A stretch of 39,107 nucleotides of DNA from a virus. The translations under genes were made by a program, and so were the position numbers. Each line of letters opens with the position of its first letter. The first letter of the stretch is position 1. The DNA lies in IMG/VR virus record IMGVR_UViG_3300032291_000781, positions 1 to 39,107 of that record, one strand, 5' to 3'. Shown piece after piece: positions 124-39,107 of this stretch. The notes beneath the pieces were generated by a model. The model had not been told where the DNA came from, made no database searches, and was given only the letters and a program-made list of their open reading frames with translations.

Positions 124-1608
124 ACATTGATAGTAAGCAGGCTTCTCGACCCGAGCCGAGAGAACGGACACAGCCTAGAAGCGTGGGGACACACACTAGG
201 GTTTCCGAAGATTGACTATGCAAGGGTTTGGCAATGGCTTATGGATCGTAGTGAGGAGTATGATGGCGAGTGCTTTGATAATCCTCATCATGCTCTTCTT
301 GACGATTACTGTATTCGTGATGTTGAGGTAACTGCAAAACTCTATGAGCATTTAGTTACCGAGATTGAACAGAAGCAGTTTAGTCAGGAGTCCATTGAAC
401 TTGAACAGAGTGTTGCAGCTATCATTGCTCAACAAGAAAGGAATGGTTTTAAACTTGACCAAATCTATGCAACCTTGCTACTTACTGACATCAAGTCAAA
501 AGTGGCAGGAATATATGAGCAGATGCAACAACGATGGCCTCCCTACACTGTCGAACGATTCTCAGAAAAGACAGGAAAGAGACTCAAAGATAGCGTGGTT
601 ACTTTCAATCCCGGAAGTAGACAACAGATCGGAGAGAAGCTAAAGGAACTTGGGTGGAAGCCTAAGACCTTTACACCTACGGGACAGCCTATTGTTGATG
701 AATCTGTGCTGGAGAAGCTGGACATTCCAGAGGCTAAACTGATTGCTGAGTACCTGATGTTAAACAAGCGTATCAGCCAGATTGAGTCATGGATGGAAGC
801 TGTAGGTAAGGATGGAAGAGTTCATGGTAAGGTAATTACCAATGGTGCTGTGACAGGTCGTATGACACATAGCAGCCCTAACATGGCTCAGATTCCTAAT
901 GCAGGTTCAGTTTATGGCCCTGAGTGCAGGGAATGCTGGACTGTTGAAGAAGGTAATGTTTTGGTAGGCTGCGATGCTTCAGGACTTGAGCTTCGTATGC
1001 TTGCTCACTATATGAAGGATCAAAACTATGTCAGAACTGTCTGTGAGGGATCATCTAAAGATGGTACAGATGTACACACAGTTAACCAACGAGCAGCAGG
1101 ACTCGCTAGTCGAGACAATGCAAAAACTTTTATCTACGCCTTCCTCTACGGTGCGGGAGATGCGAAGATTGGTAGCATCGTTGGAGGATCAGCGGCAGCA
1201 GGTAAGAAGCTTAAGGAAAAGTTCCTTGAACAGACACCAGCCCTTGCAAAGCTCATCAAGCTTGTCTCCAGCATCTCAGCTAAGGGATATGTACCGGGGC
1301 TAGATGGTAGGAGAATTTGGGTACGATCTGAACACGCTGCTTTGAACAGCTTACTGCAAGGTGCAGGAGCTATCGTTATGAAGAAGGCTCTGGTTATCTT
1401 CAACGATAAGATCAAGGCAAACAAGTGGCCTGTTAAGCTCGTAGCCAATGTGCATGATGAGTTTCAGTTTGAATGTCCTAAAGATATTGCCGAAGATGCT
1501 GGCAAAGCTGCTAGGATGTCAATCATTGAAGCTGGTGAGTATTTCAAGCTTAGATGTCCTCTTGATGGGGAATATAAGATTGGAAGAAATTGGAGAGAAA
1601 CTCATTGA
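1..1608 (+). CDS. DNA polymerase, family A, T7 gp5-like (3' part of gene split by contig ends)
   Basis: This is the replicative phage DNA polymerase with 3'-5' proofreading. It is codons 36-570 of a gene that starts at 38880 and crosses the contig junction in frame. In full-length numbering, Exo II is N52-GISF-D57. Polymerase motif A is DASGLELR (D360), motif B is RDNAKTFIY plus LYG (K410), and motif C is H520-D-E. Several stretches, including the C-terminal GxNW, read like T7 gp5. At 570 residues it is well short of T7 gp5 (704). The long basic thioredoxin-binding insert of the T7 thumb is not seen between about residue 195 and the FNPGSR segment. The stop codon overlaps the -35 box of the next promoter. 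Identity is certain at family level; thioredoxin independence is inference. Confidence 0.97.
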   Translation, partial: SNLPEFLKDASLIVMHNGISFDAPVLNRLWKTKIRLSRVFDTLIVSRLLDPSRENGHSLEAWGHTLGFPKIDYARVWQWLMDRSEEYDGECFDNPHHALLDDYCIRDVEVTAKLYEHLVTEIEQKQFSQESIELEQSVAAIIAQQERNGFKLDQIYATLLLTDIKSKVAGIYEQMQQRWPPYTVERFSEKTGKRLKDSVVTFNPGSRQQIGEKLKELGWKPKTFTPTGQPIVDESVLEKLDIPEAKLIAEYLMLNKRISQIESWMEAVGKDGRVHGKVITNGAVTGRMTHSSPNMAQIPNAGSVYGPECRECWTVEEGNVLVGCDASGLELRMLAHYMKDQNYVRTVCEGSSKDGTDVHTVNQRAAGLASRDNAKTFIYAFLYGAGDAKIGSIVGGSAAAGKKLKEKFLEQTPALAKLIKLVSSISAKGYVPGLDGRRIWVRSEHAALNSLLQGAGAIVMKKALVIFNDKIKANKWPVKLVANVHDEFQFECPKDIAEDAGKAARMSIIEAGEYFKLRCPLDGEYKIGRNWRETH

Positions 1609-1632
1609 CACCTCACGAAAGTGTGGTATAAT
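1605..1632 (+). promoter_or_regulatory. Perfect-consensus sigma70 promoter ahead of tRNA-Leu
   Basis: TTGACA (1605-1610), a 16-base spacer and TATAAT (1627-1632). The predicted start (about 1639-1641) coincides with the first base of the tRNA, so the transcript would begin at or next to the mature 5' end. The -35 box contains the TGA stop of the polymerase. It likely also feeds the SSB gene and the genes downstream. Confidence 0.88.
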
Positions 1633-22317: not shown

Positions 22318-22350
22318 TAAAGAAAGGAGAAGCCCCGAAGGGCTCCCCTT
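22318..22350 (-). terminator. Intrinsic terminator after the major capsid gene
   Basis: On the minus strand a hairpin GGGGAGCCC-TTCG-GGGCTTCTCC with a stable TTCG tetraloop is followed by TTTCTTTA. The outer stem uses G-U pairs. It would partly stop transcripts after the capsid gene, making capsid/scaffold mRNA more abundant than downstream tail genes. Confidence 0.85.
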
Positions 22351-31093: not shown

Positions 31094-31352
31094 TTGTCTT
31101 TATCCTTTCTTAGGGAGACAAAACATCTATTGTTTAAGACAATCCACTTATGCACTTAAAGTACTTTAAAGTTACTTATAAGTTAAGAACTTTATAAGTT
31201 ATATATTATAAGTACTTAGTATATATTCTTATAATATTACTTATAGTATTTAACTTTAACATTCTACATTAACATTCGTTGTATCAACTGTGCAGATTCC
31301 TACTTAGCAACATAAGAGTCCATCACCTTCTTAGTTACTTTCATATCCTTCT
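31094..31352 (-). promoter_or_regulatory. Long AT-rich 5' leader of the late operon
   Basis: About 260 bases between the late promoter and the small terminase start, with no credible ORF. Positions 31150-31260 are packed with short palindromic motifs: ACTTATAGTAT (31239-31249), TTATAAGTACTTA (31206-31218), AACTTTATAAGT (31188-31199), ACTTTAAAGT (31163-31172). The same four motifs occur in the same transcript order in the leader at 35258-35333. It may bind a regulator or fold in the RNA. Confidence 0.7.
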
Positions 31353-31672: not shown

Positions 31673-31745
31673 TGACTCAATTGTCGTTAAAGTGACTCAA
31701 GAGTTACAATCTATACTGGTCAGTTACAATCTATACTCATAAGTC

Positions 31746-31761
31746 TAGTTGGTGAACTAGA
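31746..31761. repeat. Hairpin/palindrome CTAGTT-GGTG-AACTAG
   Basis: A perfect 6-bp inverted repeat with a 4-base loop inside the iteron array. It may be an operator half-site pair or part of the initiator-binding region. Confidence 0.6.
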
Positions 31762-31790
31762 GGTAGCAGTGTAGACTGTCTAGTTGCAAA

Positions 31791-31805
31791 TGAGAATCAT
31801 TCTCA
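31791..31805. promoter_or_regulatory. Fur-box-like 7-1-7 palindrome
   Basis: TGAGAAT-C-ATTCTCA is a perfect inverted repeat. With its flanks it matches the classic 19-bp Fur consensus (GATAATGATAATCATTATC) at 14 of 19 positions, and AATGAGAATCATTCTC is a form found at many proteobacterial Fur sites. It lies inside the iteron array, not at a typical promoter. Whether host Fur binds is inference. Confidence 0.6.
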
Positions 31806-31972
31806 ATACGGTGTAGTCACAGTGTAGACTGTCGAGTCACAATCTGGACTGGCAAGGGTGAAGGGCGATGTGGGAACCTACAAAGTACACCTAAGGGTCA
31901 CAACGCACACCTGAAAGTCACAACGCATACTGAACAGTCACAATCTAGTCCCATCAGTCACCACCAAGAAAG

Positions 31973-32114
31973 TTATCCACAGGTTATCCCAGCACTCTAA
32001 AGTTATCCACAGCACTGCAACTATCGTGCCAGCGGAGCGTCAGAGTTATCCACAGGTTGTTAGTCTTATATAAGACCTGTATCTGTGGACAAGTACCACT
32101 ACTGGTGTGGATAA
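31973..32114. other. Putative replication origin: cluster of DnaA boxes
   Basis: Perfect TTATCCACA boxes lie at 31973-31981, 32003-32011 and 32046-32054 on the plus strand and at 32106-32114 on the minus strand. A near match (TTGTCCACA) lies at 32084-32092 on the minus strand. A partial TTATCCCAG follows the first box at 31985. Four perfect copies of a 9-mer in 142 bases is far above chance. Between the plus and minus boxes is a perfect 14-bp AT-rich palindrome GTCTTATATAAGAC (32063-32076). With the adjacent iterons this resembles plasmid/chromosome origins that recruit host DnaA. Confidence 0.85.
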
Positions 32115-34962: not shown

Positions 34963-35199
34963 ATGCACTGTATTGTCTGTGACAGAAACTTAAAAGACCA
35001 CGAATCGGTGAGGCGACACGCTATCACTAATGAATTCTTGGATATGTGCGATGGATGTTTGAGGGAGATTCCCAACATTCCAACACGGATGCCTCAAGGG
35101 TTTATCCATGTAACTGATCCCTTTGAGGATCGACCAGATGATGACACGGATACATCCGATGTTACAGATTGTTACAATTCAGACCTTGACAATGACTGA
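34963..35199 (+). CDS. Small zinc-finger-like protein, 78 aa
   Basis: C3-IV-C6 and C29-DG-C32 make a two-CxxC zinc site separated by 22 residues, followed by an acidic tail (FEDRPDDDTDTSDVTD). Early phage zinc-finger proteins often act on host enzymes, but no target is known here. Its last codons contain the -35 box of the next promoter. Confidence 0.78.
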   Translation: MHCIVCDRNLKDHESVRRHAITNEFLDMCDGCLREIPNIPTRMPQGFIHVTDPFEDRPDDDTDTSDVTDCYNSDLDND

Positions 35200-35213
35200 T
35201 TGTGACATATAAT
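35186..35213 (+). promoter_or_regulatory. Perfect-consensus sigma70 promoter of the endolysin-primase-polymerase operon
   Basis: TTGACA (35186-35191), a 16-base spacer and TATAAT (35208-35213). The -35 lies in the end of the zinc-finger gene. The start is predicted near 35220, upstream of a 160-base AT-rich leader. Confidence 0.88.
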
Positions 35214-35219
35214 ATACTA

Positions 35220-35379
35220 TATAGACCTATGACATTGCTTCAATGCTTAGATGTTACATACTATAAGTTACTTATATTAAGTACTTATAAAGTTACATAG
35301 AAGCATTGATGTAATGTATAAGGACTTTAAAGTCTTTAATGTGTCTATGTTCCGTTAACTTTCAACAACTGGATTTATC
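35220..35379 (+). promoter_or_regulatory. AT-rich leader with a long imperfect inverted repeat
   Basis: Two arms of about 42 bases (35232-35274 and 35276-35317) are roughly 80% complementary, with TTCAATGCTT opposite AAGCATTGAT. Then comes the perfect palindrome GACTTTAAAGTC (35323-35334). No ORF is seen. Motifs ATACTATAAGT (35258), TTAAGTACTTATAA (35277), ACTTATAAAGTT (35283) and ACTTTAAAGT (35324) match those in the late-operon leader in the same order. Confidence 0.7.
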
Positions 35380-38879: not shown

Positions 38880-39107
38880 ATGAGGATTGTTCTCGACATT
38901 GAGACAAACCTAGCACACGACAAGATTCACCTTGTAGTGACTAAAGACATTGACACTGGAGAAGTACGCAAATGGAAAGCAGCAAGCAACCTGCCGGAGT
39001 TTTTAAAGGACGCATCGTTGATAGTCATGCACAACGGCATAAGTTTCGATGCACCAGTATTGAATCGCTTATGGAAGACGAAGATTCGTTTGAGTCGAGT
39101 ATTCGAT
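38880..39107 (+). CDS. DNA polymerase, family A (5' part; continues at base 1)
   Basis: The true start of the polymerase: ATG 38880 after AAGGATTGCT. The first ten residues MRIVLDIETN contain the Exo I motif (D6, E8) of the proofreading domain. 35 codons lead exactly to base 38984, and the frame continues at base 1 after removal of the 123-base overlap. Confidence 0.95.
   Translation, partial: MRIVLDIETNLAHDKIHLVVTKDIDTGEVRKWKAASNLPEFLKDASLIVMHNGISFDAPVLNRLWKTKIRLSRVFD
38985..39107. repeat. Terminal redundancy, right copy (identical to 1-123)
   Basis: Second copy of the contig-end overlap. Removing one copy leaves a closed circle of 38,984 bases with the polymerase reading frame intact. Confidence 0.97.

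Follow-up and report, generated by a model that had tools for sequence, protein, structure and literature searches.

In phage lambda, antitermination by the N protein works through nutL and nutR, paired leader elements that are placed on two opposed long operons. Phage HK022 also has two opposed long operons with paired leader RNAs, putL and putR; the put RNA is about 70 nt long, consists of two adjacent stem-loops, and has a proven role at the zinc-binding domain of the RNA polymerase beta' subunit, by which termination and pausing are suppressed with no phage protein needed (PMC9378689).

The window considered here, that is, the whole stretch of 39,107 nucleotides that was analysed (IMG/VR record IMGVR_UViG_3300032291_000781), is a terminally redundant record from an uncultured phage family, with a GC content of 0.44. 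Its late operon and its replication operon are each headed by a 5' leader RNA (leader 1 and leader 2, respectively), and these are paralogues, two copies of a single structured RNA rather than mere stretches of AT-rich DNA (Table 1). The genome diverges around 31.4-32.2 kb into two arms: (i) the leftward or late arm, which carries the small-terminase-like gene and those for the large terminase, portal, head, tail and holin; and (ii) the rightward arm, whose first part (32.2-35.2 kb) contains small early genes without an assigned function and which, from 35.38 kb and on through the circle, carries the endolysin, primase-helicase, DNA polymerase and nucleotide genes. The names of the DNA polymerase and of some structural genes are our own reading of the open reading frames (ORFs). 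The first gene of the replication operon, which encodes 61 amino acids, follows leader 2. Nine of the ten small proteins encoded at 32.2-35.6 kb have no PHROG match and the tenth matches a family of unknown function; no phage N protein was recognised among them. A host search with the small-terminase-like protein over 84,980 genomes gave no match. Between the two arms, four perfect DnaA boxes (TTATCCACA) lie within 142 bp at 31973-32114 (five genome-wide, against 0.25 expected), adjoined by five repeats of the AGTCACAATCT type at 31702-31966; going by these motifs, this region looks like a DnaA-dependent phage replication origin.

Table 1. Features of the two leaders and their surroundings (positions in the window).
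Feature	Position	Strand	Basis or remarks
Terminal repeat, exact, 123-base	1-123 and 38985-39107		Record circular or terminally redundant
Intrinsic terminator inside the late operon	22327-22348	-	9-pair GC-rich stem and T run; directly 3' of the major head protein gene
Small-terminase-like gene, first late gene	31093-30716	-	Directly after leader 1
Leader 1, 5' leader RNA of the late operon	31094-31350	-	Sequence; start approximate; conserved in dozens of relatives
Leader 1, hairpin UGUCU...AGACA (UGUCUCCCUAAGAAAGGAUAAAGACA) enclosing the ribosome-binding site of the first late gene	31095-31120	-	Sequence
Leader 1, 3' half: AACTTATAAAGTT hairpin, distal arm UUAACUUAUAAG, ACTTTAAAGTACTTTAAG hairpin	31155-31205	-	
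Leader 1, core common to leader 2: arm AAGTTAA and ATACTATAAGT ... TAAGTACTTATAA	31206-31262	-	
Leader 1, near-invariant stretch GGAATCTGCACAGTTGATACAACG with small hairpin GUUG-AUA-CAAC	31277-31301	-	Invariant columns, 33 leaders
Leader 1, hairpin P0 (GUAACUAAGA...UCUUAUGUUGC)	31308-31338	-	Sequence inspection and minimum free energy (MFE)
Sigma-70 promoter, late operon	31387-31359	-	TTGACA-17-TATAAT, TG before the -10; 12/12 consensus
Sigma-70 promoter, replication operon	35186-35213	+	TTGACA-16-TATAAT; 12/12 consensus
Leader 2, long rod-like RNA of the replication operon	35216-35345	+	z -4.9 to -6.4; model R1
Leader 2, arms	about 35232-35259 and 35291-35317	+	
Leader 2, apical hairpin (ATACTATAAGTTACTTATATTAAGTACTTATAA), stretch most alike between leaders	35258-35290 (hairpin proper 35260-35290)	+	
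Leader 2, 3' hairpin	35319-35338	+	

A first-pass annotation of this DNA had assumed a promoter before each leader, and both promoters turn out to be perfect. In relatives, too, leader 1 and leader 2 stand behind perfect or near-perfect sigma-70 promoters. Only three perfect promoters of this type exist in the genome, and the third (1605-1632, plus strand) is found directly 5' of a tRNA-Leu(UAA) gene (1641-1725). Since the late and replication operons start at perfect sigma-70 promoters, a control of timing after initiation is plausible. Neither an RNA polymerase nor a sigma factor was found among 30 scanned proteins (a subset of the ORFs).

The same annotation had described four AT-rich motifs, present in both leaders in the same transcript order, as an apparent duplicated regulatory element. 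All four are where it had placed them, in that order, and each occurs only twice in the genome: (i) motif 1, ATACTATAAGT, at 31249 (minus) and 35258 (plus); (ii) motif 2, TAAGTACTTATAA, at 31218 (minus) and 35278 (plus); (iii) motif 3, ACTTATAAAGTT, at 31199 (minus) and 35283 (plus); and (iv) motif 4, the palindrome ACTTTAAAGT, at 31163-31172 and 35324-35333. As a common ordered set, motifs 1, 2 and 4 hold, but motif 3 is out of register: in leader 2 it overlaps motif 2 (TAAGTACTTATAAAGTT), and in leader 1 the two start 19 nt apart and belong to different hairpins. The true homologous core is formed by motif 1, motif 2, the flanking arms and motif 4. Both leaders have a GC content of only about 22-27%, and AT-rich spacers could resemble each other by chance. 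Nevertheless, local alignment of the whole leaders (scoring 2/-3/-5/-2), a comparison suggested in the first-pass annotation, gives a score of 49, well above the highest values from shuffled sequences, 38 when both leaders were shuffled (2000 pairs) and 41 when only leader 2 was (2000 trials); with softer scoring, the values are 88 versus 70 (both shuffled) and 81 (leader 2 shuffled). When leader 1 was compared with every other segment of the genome, on either strand, leader 2 matched it best. Chance similarity was rejected, as shuffles never reach the score of the leader alignment; given, in addition, the reciprocal model matches and the conservation in dozens of phages described below, its probability is practically negligible.

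Relatives were found in IMG/VR through the small-terminase-like gene, the 61-amino-acid gene and the primase-helicase, and both leaders are kept in dozens of them. Two covariance models were used: R1, built from leader 2 only, and R2, built from leader 1 only. With R1, leader 1 is detected in many phages, with a best E of 2.8e-7, but in the search at E<=1 that of the window itself was missed; with R2, the leader 2 of most phages is detected, that of the window among them (E=1e-5). R1 was also run on ten related records (28-40 kb) and detects exactly two places in every one of them, the two leaders, when hits on both strands at one place, and the end-redundant copy in one record (G009), are counted once. 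Together with the reciprocal matches, these counts bear out the duplication of the element. The concerted evolution of both leaders within a phage is weak (permutation p 0.04 and 0.01) and is not relied on here; rare variants common to both leaders are found in L011 and 3300046311_000013.

Distant relatives of the B and C types carry related late leaders. In their helicase loci, no leader 2 was found; it may therefore have originated, by duplication of leader 1, within the clade of the window. As regards the surroundings of leader 1, some relatives have an ORF between this leader and the small-terminase-like gene, either a cysteine-rich one (L056, L061 and L066) or another that begins MSTKQKTPSD (L092 and L149), which suggests gene insertion. 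Two B-type late leaders (L069, 7737-8065; L077, 7693-8036) contain two tandem CTATTAAYAG-TTACTTATA-like units, as if the core had been duplicated inside the leader.

Leader 2 folds into an imperfect rod of some 30 pairs, which starts near the presumed transcription start. Its mean folding z-score over 32 phages is -4.8 (below -2 in 31 of them), versus -0.23 (sd 1.23) for random segments of the same contigs. Folding is better for the transcribed strand than for the complementary one (p 0.01), as would be expected of an RNA but not of a DNA cruciform. RNAalifold gave few pairs on plain MAFFT alignments because indels in the AT-rich core were misaligned; the structure was taken instead from pairing probabilities computed for each sequence and averaged, from covariance models and from the folds of single sequences. 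Covariance folding in relatives, also proposed in the first-pass annotation, gave a divided answer: in the R1-fitted alignment of 39 leaders, which leans towards structure, 74 paired cells are doubly changed versus 44 (sd 4.3) in 300 column shuffles (maximum 59), whereas in the unfitted alignment the covariation is not clearly higher than in shuffles. Leaders of the 'TAACAG' kind have a break in the lower part of their apical helix, with no compensating change. The z-scores, the strand asymmetry and the paired changes of leader 2 support the earlier idea of an element that acts at the RNA level. Two further suggestions of the first-pass annotation, regulator binding and a link between the arms in lytic gene timing, are conjectural, and no regulator was recognised. 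A fold stabler than shuffles and paired changes, which are general marks of cis-regulatory leader RNAs, are both found in leader 2 and, more weakly, in leader 1.

The palindromic motifs are present in both leaders but nearly absent from the rest of the genome, and their sequence is kept, as would be the case if a phage regulator bound the DNA itself at AAGTACTT, ACTTATAAGT and ACTTTAAAGT sites downstream of both promoters. An operator of this kind is, nevertheless, improbable: the arms of leader 2 keep pairing while their sequence changes, the sense strand is the one that folds better, the spacing between motifs varies by indels, and the sites are located about 45-200 bp downstream of the -10. 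The flanking paired arms, in particular, are poorly explained by a plain DNA operator.

Leader 1 has several hairpins and is less stable than leader 2 (mean z -2.1); the copy in the window folds weakly (z about -0.6 to -1.3) and is among the least stable ones. By inspection, the P0 helix is kept despite a changed sequence in L001 and in B/C-type leaders. The stretch AATCTGnACAGTTG(G)ATACAACGAATG is nearly invariant across the 33 aligned leaders, and in distant leaders the small hairpin shows paired changes from GUUG/CAAC to CCCU/AGGG, CCUU/AAGG and CUC/GAG. In the commonest fold, AU hairpins are enclosed by a helix GAAUGUAUAAGUUAA/UUAACUUAUACGUUC, and six leaders show a paired change from UA to GC. 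For pairing, the 5' arm can use the distal arm or, alternatively, a local partner, which gives a rod like that of leader 2: the distal pairing has a probability of at least 0.8 in most copies tested, and the local one is preferred in L001, L003, L009, L021 and L027. Such mutually exclusive pairings could amount to a switch, at the level of translation or of the transcript, to which a small phage protein or a ligand would bind, and the hairpin around the ribosome-binding site, a pattern that by inspection recurs in leaders of the A, B and C types even where the upstream leader differs, would fit the same purpose. But alternative pairings are common in AT-rich RNA, and neither the distal strand nor the hairpin around the ribosome-binding site is present in leader 2, so that a switch could explain leader 1 only; as an account of the pair, it is doubtful.

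Since the apical sequence, and not just its pairing, is kept in both leaders and across phages, a single trans-acting factor probably recognises the apical hairpin of both leaders while the transcript is emerging. The likeliest arrangement would be that the host RNA polymerase engaged on the operon receives a nut/put-like mark, directly or via a small early phage protein; this mark would then control the extent of transcription along the long operons, for example by way of the terminator that follows the head-protein gene. This role, in which the leaders would bind RNA polymerase or a regulator, is the best guess by analogy, to be held tentatively. In its favour is the terminator inside the late operon, seen in the window and, as a terminator-like hairpin with a T run but another sequence, at the same place after the head gene in relatives (by inspection). 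However, the terminator is explained equally well if it is simply leaky, and a leaky terminator after the head gene is known from T7. On the plus strand of the replication operon, terminator scans gave no convincing terminator.

The main rival to a nut/put-like role is mRNA processing or stabilisation: RNase III would process the transcripts at the rods, or the rods would act as 5' stem-loops that keep the long transcripts from decay, and defined 5' ends would be set. RNase III cleaves double-stranded RNA of this kind, and such rods shield 5' ends, as in the T7, lambda and ompA leaders. The rod of leader 2, with its length and its position near the presumed start, and the fact that its helix is kept while the arm sequence changes, make this explanation a real possibility, although not a probable one. 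On its own, it leaves unexplained why the apical sequence is kept alike between the leaders and across phages; to our knowledge, none of the T7, lambda N and ompA leaders has a conserved apical sequence common to two operons. Going further along the nut/put-like reading, the leaders might be antitermination RNAs of a second natural class, with no relation to put, which a lytic-type phage that has host promoters only would use on its replication and late operons; the late leader would act as a co-transcriptional switch between local rod and distal helix, and timing would be set after initiation. This more specific scheme is rather unlikely.

Where no RNA polymerase or sigma factor is recognised in a phage, the timing of its late genes must depend on the host machinery. 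Here, control probably acts after initiation, because perfect host-type promoters precede both operons, and each transcript carries at its 5' end a copy of the same conserved RNA, which is absent from Rfam: no family reaches its gathering score, distant leaders included. With blastn, both leaders gave only chance-level matches against 50,697 records of isolated phages, lambdoid ones among them. In the literature searches, no title or abstract opening describes such leaders, and an earlier description is possible.

With regard to known systems, the leaders resemble four groups in part. (i) The JUMPstart/ops leaders, on which RfaH acts, are likewise promoter-proximal elements that mark long operons; no RfaH or NusG paralogue was found among the proteins scanned. 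(ii) The RNase III or 5'-stabilising leaders of T7, lambda N and ompA have, in common with those described here, a long 5' double-stranded rod near the transcript start. (iii) The lambda nut sites are also paired leader elements on opposed operons, and boxB is similar in form to the small hairpin of leader 1 (CCCU-GAA-AGGG in some relatives), which shows paired changes; none of that kind was assigned in leader 2. Nonetheless, boxA (YGCUCUUUAACA-like) is absent, the best match in the leaders being 7-9 of 12 and no better than in shuffles, and the core here is a long AU-rich rod. (iv) As with HK022 putL and putR, there are two related structured RNAs per genome, each behind one of two opposed host-polymerase promoters. 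But the leaders are 130-250 nt long and AT-rich, leader 2 being one long rod of about 130 nt and leader 1 multi-hairpin, instead of two stem-loops of the put size, and they have no detectable sequence similarity to put. Thus, the leaders differ from nut in boxA and from put in size, architecture and sequence. In any case, the pair provides defined sequences for a direct test of an RNA that controls transcription after initiation and, if the proposed role is true, the idea behind nut and put would extend beyond the lambdoid phages.
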